Positions 26,042 to 64,000 of a DNA stretch of 64,000 bases are shown piece after piece (within the stretch, counting starts at the first letter, position 1; every line of letters starts with the position of its first letter). The notes under the pieces were generated by a model. That model was not told the origin of the DNA. It ran no database searches and saw nothing but the letters and a program-made list of their open reading frames with translations. Source of the stretch: an uncultured Ruminococcus sp. (lineage in GTDB: Bacteria; Bacillota; Clostridia; Oscillospirales; Ruminococcaceae); NCBI GenBank assembly GCA_902786975.1, contig CADAES010000002.1, positions 1 to 64,000 of the forward strand, in the 5' to 3' direction. Made by a program: the position numbers and the translations under genes.

Positions 26042-29000
26042 ATGAAAGACAATACTTTTGCGCAGATCTTTTCTCAGTTCGGATATGATTTTCCGCCTGC
26101 TCTCGCAAACGGCAGACTGCTGAAAATAGTTTCGGCTGACAATAACCGCTGGCTCAGTGTGCTGGCATCTTTTGACGAGCTCGTCCGTTACGATGAGCTG
26201 GAGCAGTTCTGTACATTTATAAAAGAAAAGCTCTCATCGAGGCATTTTTCTATAGACTGCAGATTTTCCCCCGATATGTTCACCGTTGACTATTTCCCCG
26301 AAATATTCAAATTCTTCAAGGACAAGTTCCCGCTTGTAAACGGCTTCTTCAACGGCGCACAGGCTAAGCGTGACGGTGACGTTGTAACTATAACACTTAT
26401 GCACGGAGGCTACGAGCTTCTCAAAAGACACGGCGCTTCAAATGCACTGTCAACGCTTATAAATGAAATGTTCTCGGTCAGACTGAAATTTGAGTACGAC
26501 GGAGTGCTTGAGACCGATGCCGAGGCTTACGAGCGTGAGCAAAAGGAGTTCCTTGCAAATCTTCCCGCACCTACACCGGCGCCTTCACAGGGCAAGGCAC
26601 CGTCTTCTTCGGCAAAGTCCGGCGACAGCGGCGAGGAGATAACCTTCCGTACCTGCGACCTCGATTTTACGAGACTGCATCTGCTGGGTGACAACGCCCT
26701 TGTGCTCAAAGGCTCGCCTATCGACCCTCAGTCTAAGGTTACACAGATGATAGATATCCCGCTTGACTATACAGGGGATATCACTGTCTGGGGCGATGTT
26801 TTCAAGATAGAGACCAAGGAAACAAAAAAAGGTATGCTCATCGCAACGGTGTTCATTACCGACTATACATCTTCGTTTTCTGTAAAGTTTGTCGGTGCGC
26901 TCAAAGCGACCCGCTACAACCCGCTTACCAAAAAAGTGCTCGAGGCGATGCTTGATAAGATGAAGCCGGGAAGCACTCTTATCGTGTCGGGTAATGTCGA
27001 TGAGGACGACTTTGACCATACAGTCAACATCACTGCGGACTCTGTGCTGCTTGTCAGGCGTGAGCTCAAAAAGGATAAGTGCGAAAAGAAAAGGGTGGAG
27101 CTCCACCTGCATACCAATATGTCACAGCTTGATGCCATGACCCCTGCGGAGCTGCTCGTAAACAGAGCGCACGATTGGGGACAGAGGGCTGTCGCTATAA
27201 CCGACCACGGTGTCGTTCAGGCGTTCACTGCCGCAGGCTCGGCGTGTGACAAGATAAGAAAAAAAGATAAGAACAAGGATTTCAAGATAATCTACGGAGT
27301 TGAGGACTACGAGGTCAACAACGACGATGATATTGTTTCGGGCCTTGCGGACAGCGAGCTTGACGAGAGCTTTATCGCTGTTTCAGTCAAAGCTACAGGA
27401 GCAAATACCAATACCGATACCATAGCTTCTCTGACCGCCGTGAAGGTCACCGCTTTTGAAATAACAGACCGCTTTGATTCGTCCGCTGACGGCGACGAAA
27501 AAGCCCTTCTTGAAGCTTTTATTAGCTTTTGCGGAAACTGCAGGGTGCTTGTTATGCAGGACGTCCTGTTTTGCAATGCGTTGCTTGCACAAAGCTTTTC
27601 AAGATGTGAGCTGAGCTTTGACTATACATCTGTTGACATCGTCAGAATGTGCAGACGTATGCTTGACGGCTTTGACAGTACCTCTGCCGAGCAGGCTGCA
27701 CAGCTTATGGGATTGCCTGAGCTGCCCGAGTGCGAGCTTATCGCAGGTATCTACTCCAAGTTCTGCAAAGAGCTTATGGAAAAATACCCTCTGCTCATTC
27801 CGAGGATAAATATGATAAACAGTCTGCTTGCCAATGAGAACGAGAGCGATGTCCGAAACGGCAGACGCTATCACCAGATAATACTCGTGCGCAACAATAC
27901 AGGCCTGAAAAATCTCTACAAGCTTATTTCCTATTCCAATCTCAAATACTATAAGAAACGTCCGCTAATACCAAAATCCGAGCTTGTAAAGCACCGTGAG
28001 GGGCTTATCGTAGGCTCTGCCTGTGAGCAGGGCGAGGTTTTCAGAGCGATAGTTGAAGGTGCTTCGTGGGAAAAGCTCAAACAGATAGCTTCGTTTTACG
28101 ATTACCTTGAGATACAGCCGTGCGGAAACAACGAGTTTATGCTCAGAAACGGCACCGTACACAGCTACGAACAGCTCAGGGATTTCAACCGCACCGTGTG
28201 CAAGCTCGGCGAGGAGCTCGGCATACCTGTCTGTGCGACCTGCGATGTCCACTTTATGGACAAGTCCGATGCTAAGTTCAGAGCGATAATAATGGCAGGA
28301 CAGGGATTCCCCGATGCAGACCAGCAGGCTCCGCTTTATATGAGAACAACTGACGAGATGCTCGAGGAATTCTCATATCTCGGTGAAGAAAAAGCCCTCG
28401 AGGTAGTCGTTACAAATACCAACAGGGTCGCTGATATGATAGACCCCGACCTTAAAGCGTTCCCAAACGGCACGTACACTCCGTATATCGAGGGAGCAGT
28501 CTATGAGCTGCAGGTCATCTGCTGGAGAAAGTGCGTTAAGATGTACGGGGACTGTGAGCCTGATGAGATACAAGTCCCGCTCGAAAAGGACCTTGACGAT
28601 GAAAAGCTGAAGCATATAGGCGATTATTTCAAGGACCATATCCCGCCGATAGTTTTCAACAGACTCGAAAGAGAACTGGATTCTATTATCGAACACGGAT
28701 TTGCCGTGCTCTATATGATTGCTCAGAAACTCGTTGCTTACTCAAACGACAACGGCTACCAGGTAGGCTCCCGTGGTTCGGTAGGCTCGTCATTCGTTGC
28801 GTCGATGTCGGGCATCTCCGAGGTAAACCCTCTTGAACCGCATTATATGTGCCCCGAATGCTCTTACAGCGAGTTCATCACCGATGGTTCCGTAGGCTCG
28901 GGCTTTGACCTCCCGCCGAAGAACTGTCCAAAGTGCGGAACGGATATGCTCCGTGACGGTCACGATATCCCGTTTGAGACCTTCCTCGGATTCCACGGCG

Positions 29001-30442
29001 ACAAGGCTCCGGATATTGACCTTAACTTTTCCGGAGACGTACAGGCTAAGGTGCATAAATACACCGAAGAGCTTTTCGGTTCAGACCACGTATTCAAAGC
29101 CGGTACCATAAGCGGTATCCAGGATAATACCGCATTCGGATATGTTAAGAAATATCTTGAAGACCGTGGCAGGGTCGTTCATAAGGCAGAGGAGGAGCGT
29201 CTGAAGATCGGCTGTGTCGGTGTAAAGAGAACTACCTCACAGCACCCCGGCGGAATGGTCGTTATCCCAAGCGATTATGACGTGTACGACTTTACGCCTG
29301 TCCAGCACCCCGCCGAAAAGGTCGATTCGGATATGGTCACGACTCACTTTGACTTCCATTCACTTCACGACACTATTCTCAAACTCGACGAGCTCGGACA
29401 CGATGTTCCGACAGAGTATAAATATCTTGAAATGTTCAGCGGTAAGGATATAACGAAGATACCTATGTCCGACCCCGACGTCTATAAACTGTTCACCTCT
29501 CCCGAGGTACTCGGCGTAACTCCCGAGGATATACGCTGTCAGACGGGAACTCTCGGTATCCCCGAAATGGGTACCAAATTCGTTTGCCAGATGCTTATTG
29601 ACGCAAAACCGAGGAACTTTTCCGACCTTCTCCAGATATCGGGACTCTCACACGGTACCGATGTATGGCTGGGAAATGCAAAGGACCTTATCGCAAACGG
29701 TACCTGCAACATTTCACAGGTAATCGGTACAAGAGACAGTATCATGACGTATCTTATCTACCACGGCGTGGATAAGAGCCTTTCGTTCAGGATAATGGAG
29801 ATAACCCGTAAGGGAAAAGCGCCCAAAGAGCTGACGGAGGATATACAGAATGAAATGAGAGCGCACGATGTCCCGCAGTGGTATATCGACAGCTGTCTGA
29901 AGATAAAGTATATGTTCCCTAAGGCCCACGCCGCAGCCTACGTTATCGCTGCGATAAGACTCTGCTGGTTCAAGGTCCACGACCCGCTGACTTTCTATGC
30001 TACAATGTTTACTGTCCGTGGCGAGGACTTCGATGCAGAGCTTGTGATGAGAGGAATGTACGTTATCAGAAATAAGCTCGAGGAGATAGAGAGCAAGTCC
30101 AAGGACGAAAAGACCGGCAAGGACAACGGCGTTTACGAAATACTTATGCTCGCAAACGAGATGCTTTCAAGAGGCTTTGAGTTCCTGCCCGTTGATATCA
30201 ACAAGTCGCATTCGTTCATTTATCGCATAGAGGACGGAAAGATAAGGCTACCGTTCTGCTCGCTCTCGGGCGTCGGTCTTAACGCCGCTAACCAGATCTA
30301 CGAAAAAGCTAATGCCGGCGGCTTTATCTCCGTAGAGGAATTTCAGATACAAAGCGGTGTTCAGCGCTCTGTTGTTGAAACGCTCGACAGAAACGGCGCT
30401 TTCGGCGACCTGCCGAAGCAGAACCAGCTCTCGCTTTTCTAA
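26042..30442 (+). CDS. polC: DNA polymerase III PolC-type alpha subunit with degenerate exonuclease
   Basis: A 1466-residue replicative polymerase. Order: an N-terminal domain and OB fold (about 1-345), a PHP domain starting at RVELHLHTN (351), an inserted 3'-5' exonuclease region (about 443-580), the second PHP part with CATCDVHFMD, a zinc finger from Cys937 (CPEC...CPKC), the catalytic PDIDLNFSG (990-998), fingers, and the C-terminal NQLSLF clamp-binding end. Polymerase motifs are intact. The exonuclease is not: the usual FDVETTG reads VSVKATG (D to S, E to K), HNASFD reads QDVLFC, and the HxxxxD motif is not recognisable. Proofreading in cis seems lost. It follows ispG by 12 bases. Confidence 0.95.
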   Translation: MKDNTFAQIFSQFGYDFPPALANGRLLKIVSADNNRWLSVLASFDELVRYDELEQFCTFIKEKLSSRHFSIDCRFSPDMFTVDYFPEIFKFFKDKFPLVNGFFNGAQAKRDGDVVTITLMHGGYELLKRHGASNALSTLINEMFSVRLKFEYDGVLETDAEAYEREQKEFLANLPAPTPAPSQGKAPSSSAKSGDSGEEITFRTCDLDFTRLHLLGDNALVLKGSPIDPQSKVTQMIDIPLDYTGDITVWGDVFKIETKETKKGMLIATVFITDYTSSFSVKFVGALKATRYNPLTKKVLEAMLDKMKPGSTLIVSGNVDEDDFDHTVNITADSVLLVRRELKKDKCEKKRVELHLHTNMSQLDAMTPAELLVNRAHDWGQRAVAITDHGVVQAFTAAGSACDKIRKKDKNKDFKIIYGVEDYEVNNDDDIVSGLADSELDESFIAVSVKATGANTNTDTIASLTAVKVTAFEITDRFDSSADGDEKALLEAFISFCGNCRVLVMQDVLFCNALLAQSFSRCELSFDYTSVDIVRMCRRMLDGFDSTSAEQAAQLMGLPELPECELIAGIYSKFCKELMEKYPLLIPRINMINSLLANENESDVRNGRRYHQIILVRNNTGLKNLYKLISYSNLKYYKKRPLIPKSELVKHREGLIVGSACEQGEVFRAIVEGASWEKLKQIASFYDYLEIQPCGNNEFMLRNGTVHSYEQLRDFNRTVCKLGEELGIPVCATCDVHFMDKSDAKFRAIIMAGQGFPDADQQAPLYMRTTDEMLEEFSYLGEEKALEVVVTNTNRVADMIDPDLKAFPNGTYTPYIEGAVYELQVICWRKCVKMYGDCEPDEIQVPLEKDLDDEKLKHIGDYFKDHIPPIVFNRLERELDSIIEHGFAVLYMIAQKLVAYSNDNGYQVGSRGSVGSSFVASMSGISEVNPLEPHYMCPECSYSEFITDGSVGSGFDLPPKNCPKCGTDMLRDGHDIPFETFLGFHGDKAPDIDLNFSGDVQAKVHKYTEELFGSDHVFKAGTISGIQDNTAFGYVKKYLEDRGRVVHKAEEERLKIGCVGVKRTTSQHPGGMVVIPSDYDVYDFTPVQHPAEKVDSDMVTTHFDFHSLHDTILKLDELGHDVPTEYKYLEMFSGKDITKIPMSDPDVYKLFTSPEVLGVTPEDIRCQTGTLGIPEMGTKFVCQMLIDAKPRNFSDLLQISGLSHGTDVWLGNAKDLIANGTCNISQVIGTRDSIMTYLIYHGVDKSLSFRIMEITRKGKAPKELTEDIQNEMRAHDVPQWYIDSCLKIKYMFPKAHAAAYVIAAIRLCWFKVHDPLTFYATMFTVRGEDFDAELVMRGMYVIRNKLEEIESKSKDEKTGKDNGVYEILMLANEMLSRGFEFLPVDINKSHSFIYRIEDGKIRLPFCSLSGVGLNAANQIYEKANAGGFISVEEFQIQSGVQRSVVETLDRNGAFGDLPKQNQLSLF

Positions 30443-40620: not shown

Positions 40621-43236
40621 TTGTTAGCCAAGGATGTAGATATATCAAAGCTGTCACCAATGATGCAGCAGTATTTTGAGGTCAAGAAAAAGTATAAGAA
40701 CCATATTCTGTTTTACAGGCTCGGTGATTTCTACGAAATGTTTTTTGACGATGCTATAACTGCATCAAGGGAGCTTGAGCTTACTCTGACCGGAAGAGAC
40801 TGCGGACTAGATGAGCGTGCGCCCATGTGCGGCGTTCCTCATCATGCCTGCGATCTTTATATCAAAAAGCTTATCGAAAAGGGCTATATGGTAGCGATCT
40901 GTGAGCAGACTATGGACCCTGCCAAGTGCAAGGGCATCGTCCCCAGAGAGGTCATAAGAGTCGTTACCCCGGGAACCCTTATCGAAAGCACAATGCTTGA
41001 TGAGAATTCAAACAACTACATCTGCTCGTTTTATATGCAGGATAAGGAAAGTGCGCTGTGCTTTGCCGATATCTCAACGGGCGAGGTGCATTTGTTTGAG
41101 TTTTCGGGAAAACAGATGACGAATGAGTCGATAAACGAGCTTTCAAGATTTGAACCCTCCGAGGTGCTCATCAACGACGCATTTTTGTCAAACAAGGAGC
41201 TTTCCTCGTTTATCCGTGAAAAGCTCTCCGCATCTGTCCAGCTCATCGAGGAAATGGAGTTCTCCGTAAAGTACCATACCGAAGATGTGCTAAAACAGTT
41301 CAGCGTGAACAGCCTCACCGAGATAGGCATAGATCCCGAAAAGGTGAGCGCAAAAGCTGTCTGCGGACTGTTCTCGTATATTCACCAGACACAGAAGGCT
41401 CTTGTCGGAAGATTCTCTAAGATAACACGCCACGATGTAGACCCTGTAATGACTATCGGCTTTACGGCAAGAAAAAATCTCGAGCTTACCGAAACGCTGA
41501 GAAATAAGGAGAGAAAAGGCTCTCTTCTGTGGGTCATCGACAGTACAAAGACCTCAATGGGAAAGCGAATGCTCAAAGCGTGGCTTGAACAGCCGCTTAT
41601 CAACCCGACAAAAATAATAAACAGGCTCAACGCCGTCGAACAGTTTGTTGAGAATCCCGTTATGCTCGGTGAGATAAAGGAGACCCTCAACGGCGTTTAC
41701 GACCTTGAAAGACTTATGACAAGAGTGATGTATAAGACCGCCTCACCCAGAGACCTTAAATCACTCTCACTTACCGCATTGAAGCTCCCCGCACTTAAAG
41801 ATATGCTCAAAGAGTTCGATGCTAAGCTGATAGCAGATTGCGAAAGCAGGATATCTACCCTCGAAGCTGTCTCCAACCTTATCGAGAATGCGATAGTTGA
41901 CGAGCCGCCCGTAAACGTAAAGGACGGCGGAGTCATAAAGGACGGCTTCAACGAACAGCTCGACGGACTCAGGAATATCCGTTCCGGCGGTAAGGATATT
42001 ATCGAGGATATCTGTGAAAGAGAAAAGGAAAAAACGGGCATCAAGAACCTTAAAATAGGTTACAACCGTGTGTTCGGCTATTATATCGAGGTAACCAAGT
42101 CGTTCTATGACCTTGTCCCGCAGACTTATATCAGAAAACAGACCCTTGCAAACTGCGAGAGGTTCATCACAGAGGAGCTGAAGGTCGCCGAGAATACTAT
42201 CCTCGGTGCAAGCGACAAGATAATCACGCTCGAACAGGATATCTTTACCGAGATCAGGGATTTCGTCGCAACACAGCTGAGGCTCGTACAGGAAACAGCC
42301 TCTGCGGTCGCACAGATAGATGTGCTGTGCTCGTTTGCAAGCGTTGCGATAAATAACAATTACACAAAGCCCGAGATAGCTATCGACGGTGTTATCGACA
42401 TCAAAAACGGCAGACACCCTGTTGTCGAGCTGATGCAAAAGGACGAGGTCTTCGTTCCGAACAATACGTATCTCGACCTTACCAGTAACCGTATGGCTGT
42501 CATTACCGGGCCGAATATGTCCGGTAAATCAACATATATGCGCCAGGTCGCACTTATAACACTGATGGCGCAGATAGGCTGCTTCGTGCCTGCTGATTAT
42601 GCAAAGATATCGGTGGTGGATCAGATATTCACCCGTATAGGAGCATCTGACGACCTTACGGCAGGACAGTCAACATTCATGGTCGAAATGGCAGAAGTCG
42701 CCGATATCGTCAAGCATGCCACCAAAAACAGCCTTGTTATTCTTGACGAGGTCGGACGAGGAACGTCTACCTTTGACGGTATATCTATCGCAAGAGCCGT
42801 TTCGGAGTATATCTCCACATCACGTTCTCTTGGCTGTAAAACGCTCTTTGCTACACACTACCACGAGCTTATCTGCCTTGAAAACGAGCTTGTCGGCGTG
42901 CGAAATTTCTCTGTCGCAGTCAAGCGCCAGGGCGATACTATCAAATTCCTCAGAAAGATAGTCCCGGGCGGTGTTGACGAGAGCTACGGCATCGAGGTCG
43001 CTAAGCTCGCAGGGCTTCCCGATAAGATAATCAACCGTGCAAAGGCTCTGCTTGCCGAGCTTGAAGCTGATAACCTCAAAGCAAGACAGGCGGTCGAAAG
43101 AGCTGATGCCGAACAGGTGTCGTTTGAAAAGATAAACGATTCTATCGTTACCGAAAGACTCAGAAAGACCAATATCGACGAAATGACCGATGAAGAACTC
43201 AGAGGCTTCATCAAAGAGCTTACTACCTATCTTTGA
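40621..43236 (+). CDS. mutS: DNA mismatch repair protein MutS
   Basis: An 871-residue mismatch-recognition ATPase. The mismatch-reading GDFYEMF motif is near the N terminus; the ATPase has GPNMSGKSTYMRQ (Walker A), VILDEVGRGTSTFDG (Walker B) and the THYHEL switch. The C-terminal helical tail is complete. The start is TTG, with AGGAG 9 bases upstream. It is followed by mutL, the classic pair. With the PolC exonuclease degenerate, this pathway may carry a larger part of replication fidelity. Confidence 0.96.
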   Translation: MLAKDVDISKLSPMMQQYFEVKKKYKNHILFYRLGDFYEMFFDDAITASRELELTLTGRDCGLDERAPMCGVPHHACDLYIKKLIEKGYMVAICEQTMDPAKCKGIVPREVIRVVTPGTLIESTMLDENSNNYICSFYMQDKESALCFADISTGEVHLFEFSGKQMTNESINELSRFEPSEVLINDAFLSNKELSSFIREKLSASVQLIEEMEFSVKYHTEDVLKQFSVNSLTEIGIDPEKVSAKAVCGLFSYIHQTQKALVGRFSKITRHDVDPVMTIGFTARKNLELTETLRNKERKGSLLWVIDSTKTSMGKRMLKAWLEQPLINPTKIINRLNAVEQFVENPVMLGEIKETLNGVYDLERLMTRVMYKTASPRDLKSLSLTALKLPALKDMLKEFDAKLIADCESRISTLEAVSNLIENAIVDEPPVNVKDGGVIKDGFNEQLDGLRNIRSGGKDIIEDICEREKEKTGIKNLKIGYNRVFGYYIEVTKSFYDLVPQTYIRKQTLANCERFITEELKVAENTILGASDKIITLEQDIFTEIRDFVATQLRLVQETASAVAQIDVLCSFASVAINNNYTKPEIAIDGVIDIKNGRHPVVELMQKDEVFVPNNTYLDLTSNRMAVITGPNMSGKSTYMRQVALITLMAQIGCFVPADYAKISVVDQIFTRIGASDDLTAGQSTFMVEMAEVADIVKHATKNSLVILDEVGRGTSTFDGISIARAVSEYISTSRSLGCKTLFATHYHELICLENELVGVRNFSVAVKRQGDTIKFLRKIVPGGVDESYGIEVAKLAGLPDKIINRAKALLAELEADNLKARQAVERADAEQVSFEKINDSIVTERLRKTNIDEMTDEELRGFIKELTTYL

Positions 43237-43261: not shown

Positions 43262-45265
43262 ATGTCTGAAATCAAACTGCTCAGCAAGGAGGTCTCCGAG
43301 CTTATAGCCGCAGGCGAGGTCATAGACAGACCTGCCTCTGTCGCCAAGGAGCTTCTTGAAAATGCCGTTGACGCAGGAGCAAATGTAATAACTATCGAGA
43401 TCAAAAATGGCGGAAGAACGTATCTGCGTGTCACCGATAACGGAAAGGGTATATCCATGGAGGATCTGCCTACTGCTTTTCTTCGCCACGCAACGAGCAA
43501 GATATCCGAAAAGAACGACCTTGACAGGATACTGACCCTCGGCTTCAGAGGTGAAGCGCTTGCTTCGGTGTGCGCCGTGTCAAAGGTCAGCGTGCTGACA
43601 AAGCGTGCATCTGACGAGTACGGCACACACTATGAGATTGAGGGCGGCGAGCAGAAAGTATGCGAGCAAAGCGGCTGCCCCGACGGCACGACCTTCGTAG
43701 TAAGGGATATCTTCTATAATGTCCCCGCTAGACTTAAATTTCTGCGAAAGGACCCGACAGAGGGCAGCTATGTTGCCGAAATGGTCACAAAGCTTGCGCT
43801 TTCTCACCCCGAGATATCATTCAAGTTCATAAGAGACAATAAGACCGAACTTCTTTCCGCAGGCGACGGAAAGGTCTATTCTGCGATATACTCCGTTTTC
43901 GGCAGAGAATTCGCAGCCTCGCTCGTCCCTGTGGATTATTCCTACAAGGGCATCCATATCTCCGGTTATACCGTTAAGCCGCTTGAATCAAAGCCGAACA
44001 GGAAGTTCCAGAATTTTTTTGTCAACCACAGATATATCAAATCTGTGGCTTGCTCCTGCGCCCTTGAAGATGCATACAAAAATCAGATAATGGTCGGAAA
44101 GTTCCCGGCTTGCGTCCTTTATATCGACCTCGCACCCGATACCGTCGATGTCAATGTCCACCCGACAAAGATACAGGTGCGCTTTTCAAATGAAGGACTT
44201 ATGCACGAGGCGGTCTATTTTGCGGTAAAGGACTCTTTGCTCAAAAACGATAAGCCCCGTGAAATGGTGCTTGAAAGCAGAAAGCATTTCACCGAAAATC
44301 AGCTTTACAGCGTCCAGCCCGAGACCGGCGTGCAGATGCGATTCGCAGCCGAGGAGCATACCACGCATCAGAATGAAACTCAGCCTGTATCGACTTATGT
44401 TCCGCCCCCGCAGGAAAGCTTTGATACCACACCTGCGCCGAGTGCTCCGCAAGTTTCGCAGCATAAGCCTGCCGAGCCTGTTGAGGTAAAACGGCCGGAG
44501 GAGCCGAGTGTTCAGCCGCCGAGCCAGCCGCCGAAACAGCAGAAGCTCTCGGTCGAGCAGTTCAATAAATATGTCAGCGAGATACCGCTGCCCGACGAGG
44601 ATGACAGCGGAGCATTCAGATATATAAATAAGCAGAGCCTGGAGAAAACATCAAAGCCCGCCGCACCCGCTGTTGTCGAGGAGCACAAGGAAAGGCCCAA
44701 GCCGATAGTTGTCGGCGAGCTTTTCAGAACGTTCGTCGTTGCACAGTGCGGTGACGATATGATACTTATGGATAAGCACGCTGCACACGAAAGATATATC
44801 TTTGAAAAAATCAAAGATCAGAAGAACAGCCTCGATACTCAGATGCTGCTTGAGCCTGTAATGGTCGTGCTCTCCTACGACGAGTACGATGCGCTTTCAC
44901 TGAATGTTGATAAGATAAAAACCCTCGGTTTCGATATCGAGCCGGACGTCGCCCCGACAGTTGCGGTCAAGGGCGTTCCGATAATCCTTGGCGACCAGAA
45001 CCCGTCGGAGGTCGTAAGCGACCTTGCGAGAAACTTTATCGCCCATAAGCTCGAGCCGCAGATAGAGCTGTTTGACGACCTCTATCACTCTATAGCCTGC
45101 AAAGCTGCTATAAAAGCCCACGACAAGTCAAGCACCGTCGAGCTGCAGGCGCTTCTTGAAGCCGTCTACGATAACGACGATATAAGATACTGCCCTCACG
45201 GACGACCTGTGCTTATCAGGCTTTCAAAGAGGGACATCGAAAAACAGTTCAGAAGAATAGTCTGA
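43262..45265 (+). CDS. mutL: DNA mismatch repair protein MutL
   Basis: A 667-residue protein. A GHKL ATPase domain (about 1-330, with ELLENAVDAGA, DNGKGI and TLGFRGEALAS) is followed by a Pro/Gln-rich linker and a C-terminal dimerisation domain. The endonuclease motif reads DKHAAHERYIFE, matching DQHA(x)2E(x)4E except K for Q, and CPHGRP is present, so this is the nicking type of MutL found in bacteria lacking MutH. Confidence 0.95.
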   Translation: MSEIKLLSKEVSELIAAGEVIDRPASVAKELLENAVDAGANVITIEIKNGGRTYLRVTDNGKGISMEDLPTAFLRHATSKISEKNDLDRILTLGFRGEALASVCAVSKVSVLTKRASDEYGTHYEIEGGEQKVCEQSGCPDGTTFVVRDIFYNVPARLKFLRKDPTEGSYVAEMVTKLALSHPEISFKFIRDNKTELLSAGDGKVYSAIYSVFGREFAASLVPVDYSYKGIHISGYTVKPLESKPNRKFQNFFVNHRYIKSVACSCALEDAYKNQIMVGKFPACVLYIDLAPDTVDVNVHPTKIQVRFSNEGLMHEAVYFAVKDSLLKNDKPREMVLESRKHFTENQLYSVQPETGVQMRFAAEEHTTHQNETQPVSTYVPPPQESFDTTPAPSAPQVSQHKPAEPVEVKRPEEPSVQPPSQPPKQQKLSVEQFNKYVSEIPLPDEDDSGAFRYINKQSLEKTSKPAAPAVVEEHKERPKPIVVGELFRTFVVAQCGDDMILMDKHAAHERYIFEKIKDQKNSLDTQMLLEPVMVVLSYDEYDALSLNVDKIKTLGFDIEPDVAPTVAVKGVPIILGDQNPSEVVSDLARNFIAHKLEPQIELFDDLYHSIACKAAIKAHDKSSTVELQALLEAVYDNDDIRYCPHGRPVLIRLSKRDIEKQFRRIV

Positions 45266-61896: not shown

Positions 61897-64000
61897 TCAC
61901 TTCAGTTCGACCACGGTAACTCCGTCCTCGCCCTCGCCGTAAAGACCCTTTCGTGAGGACTTGACAGAAGGGTGGTGCTTGAGGTGCGCCCTTACGGCAT
62001 TCTTGAGAACACCCGTGCCTTTGCCGTGGATTATCGTAACTATACCGACGCCCGACATCACAGCATCGTCGATAAAGCTGTCAACGGCGTAGATACCGTC
62101 GTCTGCCGCATATCCTCTGATGTCAAGCTCTGTCGAGAGCTTTCTTGTCATTCTGCTCTCAACACCCTTGGTAGAAACAGCTCCCTGCTTGCTCTTGTTC
62201 TTTGTTTTGGTGCTCTGCTGCTTTTCGACAAGCCTCAGCTTGCTTACATCGACCTTTGTTTTCATAACTCCGACCTGAACAAAGCAGTTGCCCTTGGAGT
62301 CGGGCGGGCTGATAACGATACCGTTGCGCTTAGTGTCCCATACAAGCACCCTGTCGCCCTTTTGCAAAGGCCTCGGCAGAACATATCCGTCGTCTTTTTC
62401 CTCGATAACGGGGTTAGCCTCAAGATAAAGCTTGTTCATTGTCGCTTTTTGCTTGTGCCTTGCGTCGATAGCCTTTTGTGTAAAGCTTTCTTTTTCCTTC
62501 TCCTTGCGAAGCGAGTCAAGCTCGTCAACGAGCTGCTGTGACTCACGCTGTACACGTCTTACTATCTCCTGAGCCTCCAGCCTTGCACGCTCGAGAATAT
62601 CCTCTCTGTCACGGGCAAGCTTCTGATTGTCGTTTTCAAGCTTCTGCCTCAGCTCGTCAGCCTCACGCCTGTATTTCTGAGCAAGCTCATTGTTCCTTTC
62701 AAGCTCAGCCTTTGTGCGTTCAAGGTCGTCAAGTATGTTTTCAAATTTCTTGTTTTCTGACGATAAAAGCGAGCTTGCGTGGCTTATGATATCTTCGTCT
62801 ATGCCAAGGCTTCTTGATATCGCAAAAGCGTTTGACTTTCCGGGAAAGCCGATAACGAGCTTGTAGGTAGGCTTCAGTGTCTCCGGGTCAAACTGACAGC
62901 TTGCATTGAGTACGCCGTCCGTTTCGATAGCATACATCTTTATTTCCTGATAGTGCGTTGTTGTGATGAGCGTAGCCCTGAACGTGTGTATCCTGTCGAT
63001 TATTGATACCGCAAGCGCCGCACCCTCAACAGGGTCTGTGCCGGAGCCCAGCTCGTCCAGAAGCACAAGGCTGTCGCTGTCCGCCTCGTCAAGGATACGC
63101 TTGATAGTGCTTATGTGAGAGGAGAATGTCGAAAGGTCGTTTTCTATCGACTGCTGGTCTCCTATGTCTACAAGCACTTTTTTGTAAACACACACCCTGC
63201 TTCCGTCCGATGCAGGTATCATCAGACCGCACATCGTCATCAGCGTCAGCAGTCCGACAGTTTTGAGCACGACCGTTTTACCGCCTGTGTTCGGGCCTGT
63301 GATAACAAGTACGCTGTTTGAGTCCGTGCCTATTTCAAGATCGATAGGCACGACCTTTTTTTCGTCTATCAGCGGGTGCCTTGCTTTTTTGAGGATTATC
63401 ACCCCGTCATCGCCTATCTCCGGCTCCATAGCCTTCATTTTAGCGCCGAGGTTAGCCTTTGCAAAATAAACGCATAATTCACACGAAGCGTTGTAGCTTG
63501 ATATCAGCTTGTCCTTCAGCTGACCGCACTCTGCCGAGAAGCCGCTGATGATGCGGTGTATCTCGTCCTGCTCCTGTGCGGCAAGTATGCGTATGTCATT
63601 GTTTGCCTCAACAACGCTCATCGGCTCGATGAAAAGGGTAGAGCCCGATGCGGATATATCGTGCACCAGTCCGCTGACGTTTGATTTGAATTCACGCTTT
63701 ACAGGTATAACAAATCTTCCGTCACGGATAGTTACTATCGAATCCTGCATATATTTTTTGCCCTCGCCCGACTTTATCATCTTGTCAAGCGACTCTCGTA
63801 TCGAAAGCTGTGAGCGGGCTATTTTTCGTCTGATGCTCCGAAGCTCGGGGCTTGCGTCGTCAGAAAGGCTGTTCTCGTCGATAATAGCCTCGTTAAGACG
63901 CCTCAAAAGCGAGATTTCGGGGAACAGGCTCTCAAACAGATAATTGAGCTTTGTCTGTTTGTCCTCCAGCTGGTCGTACCATTTTGCAAGAGCGTCCGTC
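61897..64000 (-). CDS. mutS2: Endonuclease MutS2 (N terminus beyond window)
   Basis: A partial gene: the frame stays open through 64000, giving 700 visible residues, so about 90 N-terminal residues are missing. It has the MutS2 core, Walker A GPNTGGKT, Walker B LVLLDELGSGTDP, a long coiled-coil region rich in Glu, Lys and Arg, and a C-terminal Smr domain with LDIRGY and HGKGTGVLK. MutS2 lacks mismatch-recognition domains; in Bacillus it acts on collided ribosomes and in recombination control. A TTG at 63904 is not the start. Confidence 0.95.
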   Translation of the reverse strand, partial: TDALAKWYDQLEDKQTKLNYLFESLFPEISLLRRLNEAIIDENSLSDDASPELRSIRRKIARSQLSIRESLDKMIKSGEGKKYMQDSIVTIRDGRFVIPVKREFKSNVSGLVHDISASGSTLFIEPMSVVEANNDIRILAAQEQDEIHRIISGFSAECGQLKDKLISSYNASCELCVYFAKANLGAKMKAMEPEIGDDGVIILKKARHPLIDEKKVVPIDLEIGTDSNSVLVITGPNTGGKTVVLKTVGLLTLMTMCGLMIPASDGSRVCVYKKVLVDIGDQQSIENDLSTFSSHISTIKRILDEADSDSLVLLDELGSGTDPVEGAALAVSIIDRIHTFRATLITTTHYQEIKMYAIETDGVLNASCQFDPETLKPTYKLVIGFPGKSNAFAISRSLGIDEDIISHASSLLSSENKKFENILDDLERTKAELERNNELAQKYRREADELRQKLENDNQKLARDREDILERARLEAQEIVRRVQRESQQLVDELDSLRKEKEKESFTQKAIDARHKQKATMNKLYLEANPVIEEKDDGYVLPRPLQKGDRVLVWDTKRNGIVISPPDSKGNCFVQVGVMKTKVDVSKLRLVEKQQSTKTKNKSKQGAVSTKGVESRMTRKLSTELDIRGYAADDGIYAVDSFIDDAVMSGVGIVTIIHGKGTGVLKNAVRAHLKHHPSVKSSRKGLYGEGEDGVTVVELK

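Follow-up and report, generated by a model that had tools for sequence, protein, structure and literature searches.

The PolC-type DNA polymerase III alpha subunit of an uncultured Ruminococcus sp. retains an inserted DnaQ-type exonuclease domain in which the catalytic DEDDh residues have been lost; on the evidence of the sequence, we consider this site almost certainly dead as a catalyst. The same loss occurs in seven genomes of the genus, which form a single clade. The explanation that best accounts for the data as a whole, and that we consider probable, is that the DEDDh residues were lost in the ancestor of this clade, that the domain has drifted since then, and that proofreading is carried out by the PHP domain.

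Within the window (the entire 64,000-nucleotide stretch that we analyzed), polC occupies positions 26042 to 30442 of the forward strand and encodes a protein of 1466 aa that was identified by profile matches. Its open reading frame scored 1440.5 bits against NF001688 (NCBIfam; cutoff, 873) and 1293.7 bits against TIGR01405 (cutoff, 1043.45), indicating full-length similarity of the PolC type. The polymerase motifs PDIDLNFSG (residue 990) and KLDELGHD (residue 1114) and the C-terminal QLSLF (residue 1462) are intact; we take PDIDLNFSG to contain the polymerase aspartates and QLSLF to be a clamp-type motif. The PHP domain is interrupted by the exonuclease insertion. Its first part (residues 347 to 440, positions 27080 to 27361) carries the ligands H355, H357, D364, H389, and E421, and its second part (about residues 606 to 760, positions 27857 to 28321) carries H611, C661, D735, and H737. 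Between them lies the degenerate exonuclease domain (residues 443 to 604, positions 27368 to 27853), whose fold is predicted to be kept. All of these features are on the forward strand, as are the sites within the exonuclease domain described below.

We placed the ExoI and ExoII residues using an alignment to 9qpc (the D431A+E433A exo-null PolC of E. faecium) and a 35-row PolC alignment that includes the window PolC. All five positions of the Asp-Glu-Asp-His-Asp set expected of an active DEDDh exonuclease differ in the window PolC. At ExoI, Ser448-x-Lys450 replaces Asp-x-Glu (positions 27383 to 27391); at ExoII, Cys511 replaces Asp (positions 27572 to 27574); and at ExoIII, Glu563 occupies the Asp column (positions 27728 to 27730) and the preceding His is deleted. 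In the 35-row alignment, the ExoII motif HNAxFD is replaced and the ExoIII motif HHRxxDDA is gone. Immediately after Gly484 (between positions 27493 and 27494), the window PolC lacks 23 residues of the LTGIT region that exo-intact relatives have, and the corresponding gap in the 35-row alignment spans 21 to 27 columns across the clade. The region equivalent to residues 443 to 604 measures 162 to 167 aa in the seven degenerate PolCs and 189 aa in the five intact PolCs that we measured. The isolated exonuclease domain of the window PolC matched no Pfam family at an E-value of ≤10; the equivalent region of R. callidus matched PF00929 with an E-value of 3.3e-38, and that of the closest relative of the window genome gave a weak PF00929 score (6.6e-4) below the cutoff. 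Because a 162-residue remnant that is predicted to fold is still present, the window PolC does not belong with the exo-deleted PolCs, which have no insertion in PHP.

A reading of this DNA from its sequence alone had already proposed a complete but dead proofreading domain next to intact PHP and polymerase motifs. Its residue calls at ExoI (Ser448 and Lys450) and ExoII (Cys511) were reproduced by both alignments; the ExoIII His/Asp pair and the LTGIT loop, which it reported as unrecognizable and deleted, respectively, are indeed lost; and the nine PHP ligands and the polymerase and C-terminal motifs are all in place. The alignment with PolCs of relatives, which it had suggested as a check, confirmed the loss of the DEDDh residues. 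Only the word "complete" needs to be revised: the domain is present, but it is 22 to 27 residues shorter than in intact relatives. Together with the lost residues, the lost Pfam signal and the faster decay described below support the view that the domain is dead.

The genus of the window genome comprises 29 genomes, among which the window genome is designated G000 and its closest relative G009 (PolC locus L064). The degenerate domain is found in seven of the 29 (G000, G009, G016, G006, G008, G012, and G020), and 17 have DEDHD by alignment. In three more (G001, G017, and G025), there is a PF00929 match within the PolC frame, and no PolC was found in G004 (83% complete) or G010 (70% complete). 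The DEDDh columns of the degenerate PolCs read SKC-E in G000, DGN-G in G009, HDSAG in G016, HDAAG in G006, SSIGG in G008, SSMKG in G012, and DDAAK in G020. None of these proteins retains more than one of the five residues, and the set of replacements differs from genome to genome.

We also aligned 94 PolC rows, of which 75 have DEDHD, one more has it with an X, and 11 lack the domain. This alignment omits L114 (for which the wrong frame was picked), the partial loci L063, L108, and L116, L064 (whose protein segment is that of L035), 25 of the 30 loci L004 to L033, and L157 to L159 (family f2). Dropping five further partial rows (L006, L009, L020, L027, and L030) left 89 rows for a tree of the PHP and polymerase regions, built with a quick method under LG+G4, in which the degenerate rows form one clade (SH-aLRT, 100). 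The seven genomes likewise form one clade in a DnaE1 tree that includes eight others (support, 100/100). The loss is thus a lineage trait, as the sequence-only reading had suggested it might be, rather than a peculiarity of one genome, and the simplest history that these sequences suggest is that it occurred once, in the common ancestor of the clade.

The exonuclease domain has evolved under different constraints in this clade. The ratio of exonuclease to PHP dN was 3.52 to 7.37 over 21 pairs of degenerate PolCs versus 0.50 to 3.55 over 103 intact pairs (of 105, after the removal of those whose denominator dN was ≤0.01). Exonuclease dN/dS was 0.155 to 0.520 in 20 of 21 degenerate pairs versus 0.026 to 0.197 in 71 of 105 intact pairs, the remainder being dropped for saturated dS; the pairs in these comparisons are non-independent, and most of them approach saturation at synonymous sites. 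Twenty genomes have an intact domain or an exonuclease match; we used 15 of them as the intact set, leaving out G001, G013, G017, G019, and G025, which are partial. For the three degenerate pairs for which we calculated bootstrap upper bounds of exonuclease dN/dS, these bounds were 0.305, 0.428, and 0.258, all below 1. Hydrophobic residues such as F444, V447, F493, F496, L503, and V504 are invariant in all seven degenerate PolCs, while the catalytic positions vary.

Structure prediction, which the sequence-only reading had also suggested, yielded a DnaQ fold despite the lost residues. AlphaFold modeled the PHP and exonuclease regions with a mean pLDDT of 86.9 (10-residue block means of 86 to 98 in the exonuclease region) and the exonuclease domain alone with a mean pLDDT of 88.9 and DnaQ topology. 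In Foldseek, the predicted domain matched the PolC chain 9qrn_A (TM, 0.80 over 187 columns, presumably its exonuclease domain), the T. maritima PolC exonuclease domain 2p1j, and the DnaQ domain 8h2f (TM, 0.63). The RNase H-like DnaQ fold is a property of the predicted model, and the input alignments consisted mostly of exo-intact relatives, which favors the canonical fold. Given an exonuclease dN/dS below 1 and a confidently predicted DnaQ fold, the domain appears to be kept as a folded shell under constraint that is relaxed rather than absent.

Two alternatives would deny that the domain is dead. Many of the relatives are metagenome assemblies, so that an assembly, frameshift, or alignment artifact might be suspected. 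However, each of the seven genomes has a single open PolC frame (that of G020 ends at a contig end), and the decay is in frame; we give an artifact practically no credence because the loss is shared by seven separate genomes that form one clade and carry different replacements. Alternatively, the domain could still act as a nuclease, weakly or in an unusual way, through a rearranged set of ligands. Such activity would fit with the predicted fold, with the Asp at ExoI in G009 and G020, the His-x-Asp in G016 and G006, and the Glu at ExoIII in G000, where Glu563 could be a conservative change, and with the weak PF00929 score of the G009 domain. Nevertheless, no single acidic residue is common to all seven proteins at any of the five positions, and the replacements are species specific, which makes this reading very improbable.

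If the site is dead, the PHP domain is the first candidate proofreader. The nine ligands of the window PolC read HHDHEHCDH, in agreement with HHDHEH[C/H]DH, the motif given for an "active" PHP in the available part of the published literature. The same nine residues occur in 93 of the 94 PolC rows, the remaining row having an X, and all nine ligands are present in 15 of 15 DnaE1 sequences that we read by eye. In our alignment, Asp735 stands opposite Asn in the PolCs of Geobacillus and E. faecium, so the window PolC has a residue that both of these enzymes lack; its same-genus relatives have Asp too. According to the available text of PMC5636811, one of the nine PHP residues is mutated in Geobacillus PolC, whose PHP domain shows no exonuclease activity, and the D226N substitution abolishes the PHP exonuclease of M. 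tuberculosis DnaE1. Judging from the matched ranges of 7pu7, Asp735 probably corresponds to Asp226 of the M. tuberculosis enzyme.

We considered whether the degenerate clade had acquired the PHP Asp in compensation and rejected this idea, as Asp is present in all 94 rows. Since relatives with an intact exonuclease site also carry the full ligand set, the set is older than the loss of that site; it did not arise in response to the loss but allows it to be tolerated. For the same reason, conservation of the ligands, which is equal in exo-intact relatives, does not show that the PHP domain has a new role. The literature that we examined on PHP exonucleases, as far as its text was available, reports no PolC PHP domain as active. 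The sequence-only reading had named three possible compensations, namely, the PHP domain, a separate DnaQ-like protein, and greater use of MutSL. Retention of all nine ligands makes the PHP domain the best supported of these, and we think it likely that it has taken over proofreading from the degenerate domain.

Proofreading in trans, in the manner of epsilon in E. coli, would instead require a separate DnaQ-like exonuclease. Searches with PF00929, a DnaQ-like protein query, and TIGR00573 gave no significant DnaQ-like match in the window genome or in G009 (both approximately 90% complete); the best E-values in G009, 0.832 and 0.286, both fell within its own PolC. Zero counts are not equivalent to absence here, as the PF00929 genome scan missed an open DnaQ-like gene in G004 that the protein query found. 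Elsewhere in the genus, a DnaQ-like protein of 178 aa that matches PF00929 is found near full length in five of the seven degenerate genomes versus four of the 22 others (the match in G016 covers residues 1 to 155), an enrichment with a one-sided Fisher P value of 0.016, calculated post hoc and with kinship not corrected for. In G008, the gene for this protein (L171) adjoins a Y-family polymerase gene, which also speaks for this alternative. On the other hand, the protein has a patchy distribution, occurs in two copies in G012 and G020 and as fragments or with stops in G008, G011, G019, and G023, and has neighbors that vary among the loci inspected by eye, all of which is unlike a replisome subunit. 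The protein may contribute in some species, but it does not account for the clade as a whole if the window genome truly has no DnaQ-like gene; as the explanation for the clade, we consider it quite unlikely. Its loci are L170 to L178 and L196 to L198.

The remaining alternative is that PolC no longer proofreads at all and that the clade tolerates a higher replication error rate, relying on MutSL and DnaE1. About 10 kb after polC, the window contains mutS (positions 40651 to 43221, forward strand; 976.1 bits to TIGR01070, open frame of 873 aa) and mutL (positions 43271 to 45037, forward strand; 498.5 bits to TIGR00585, open frame of 671 aa). Matches to both exceed the cutoff in all seven degenerate genomes, the mutS match in G020 stopping close to a contig end, at position 786 of 840; MutSL is a candidate compensation. 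Intact MutS and MutL and the loss of all DEDDh residues in the window genome are compatible with this alternative, as is the DnaE1 tree, in which the degenerate clade lies at the upper end (0.40 to 0.46 from the shared node versus 0.19 to 0.45 in five intact relatives, measured as summed branch lengths). Against it, the PHP ligands are all kept, and PolC branches from the genus node in the tree of the PHP and polymerase regions are 0.219 to 0.266 in the degenerate genomes versus 0.166 to 0.480 in 17 intact genomes, showing no sustained acceleration. When the entire PolC tree is rooted at its midpoint, degenerate rows have a mean depth of 0.68 and intact rows one of 0.65; both of these comparisons are weak tests. 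We regard complete loss of proofreading as unlikely, although there may be a mild rise in mutation rate in this clade. A second MutS-like open reading frame (positions 61897 to 63906, reverse strand), perhaps MutS2, has a partial TIGR01070 match (positions 62632 to 63510) below the cutoff.

If, as we prefer, the PHP site has taken over proofreading, the ancestor would have had an ordinary clostridial PolC with two candidate proofreaders per chain, a DEDDh exonuclease inserted in PHP and a PHP metal site with full ligands. The sequences place the loss of the DEDDh site in the ancestor of the seven-species Ruminococcus-like clade, and the substitution rates show that the domain then drifted under relaxed constraint. 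Constraint was not absent, presumably because the domain must fold inside an essential enzyme. Ligands and gene content suggest that proofreading is now most likely performed by the PolC PHP site, helped by the DnaE1 PHP site and MutSL. The degenerate domain would now be a spacer or structural module and would represent an intermediate stage on the way to discarding the domain altogether, as the PolCs of related lineages have done. We lean, by a small measure, towards describing this as a natural proofreader reversal, in which PolC left the inserted DEDDh site for the ancestral PHP exonuclease, kept the dead domain as a folded module, and so provides the missing intermediate between exo-bearing and exo-less forms.

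The available part of a 2026 survey states that, in Pol III alpha subunits, it is PHP that gets inactivated, not DnaQ; this clade does the opposite and is a counterexample to that rule. In the literature that we searched, in which coverage of subscription journals is thin, we found no PolC in which a dead Exo domain has been retained. The clade, whose relatives include both exo-bearing and exo-deleted forms, offers natural exo-null PolCs for testing PHP proofreading by PolC, a question that is normally hidden by the inserted exonuclease, and it shows how an essential replicase can lose a proofreading domain in stages.

Compared to canonical PolC (the E. faecium type and 17 same-genus relatives), the window PolC has the same domain order, polymerase motifs, predicted exonuclease fold, and place of insertion in PHP, but it lacks every DEDDh residue and the 23 residues of the LTGIT region. 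An engineered exo-null E. faecium PolC, D431A+E433A, keeps its polymerase activity according to the portion of PMC12592400 that was available; it is changed at the same two ExoI positions as the window PolC, but in the latter the change arose naturally, extends across the clade, and goes along with much further degradation. M. tuberculosis DnaE1, as described in the accessible part of PMC5636811, shares with the window PolC a complete nine-residue PHP site and the expected way of proofreading. It differs in being DnaE1 rather than PolC, in lacking a DEDDh insertion, and in having an activity established by experiment. Pol I orthologues with a dead 3'-5' exonuclease domain, as presented in the available text of PMC12926913, also retain a dead DEDD domain across a lineage, but Pol I is not the main replicase, unlike PolC.

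The available text of PMC3919608 (Timinskas et al.) reports that 6% of PolCs lack the Exo insertion and that these belong to Clostridia and Negativicutes, except for a single additional copy from Thermotogae. In our alignment, the 11 rows without it (L100, L102, L107, L112, L153, L154, L155, L156, L160, L161, and L162) come from several separate lineages other than the genus studied here, and all keep the nine PHP ligands. They resemble the window PolC in having intact PHP ligands and no DnaQ-type exonuclease site in cis, but the window PolC keeps a dead domain of ~160 aa that is predicted to fold. It is plausible that the degenerate clade is an intermediate towards such PolCs. The exo-less rows require six changes on the PolC tree, at least four of which are forced by well-supported branches, and they account for seven of the 11 long end branches listed for that tree. 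By eye, the PolCs of G091 and G134 also lack the Exo domain. Five other genomes (G034, G057, G099, G123, and G141; 95 to 98% complete) had only DnaE-type matches and no PolC match above the cutoff, which suggests whole-gene loss of PolC in some relatives. PolC is read in two frames on one contig in G071 (contig C64, L168) and in G145 (contig C13, L169), probably because of frameshifts. A tRNA gene at positions 2 to 74 of the forward strand is the sole feature of the window that Rfam matches at its gathering threshold.
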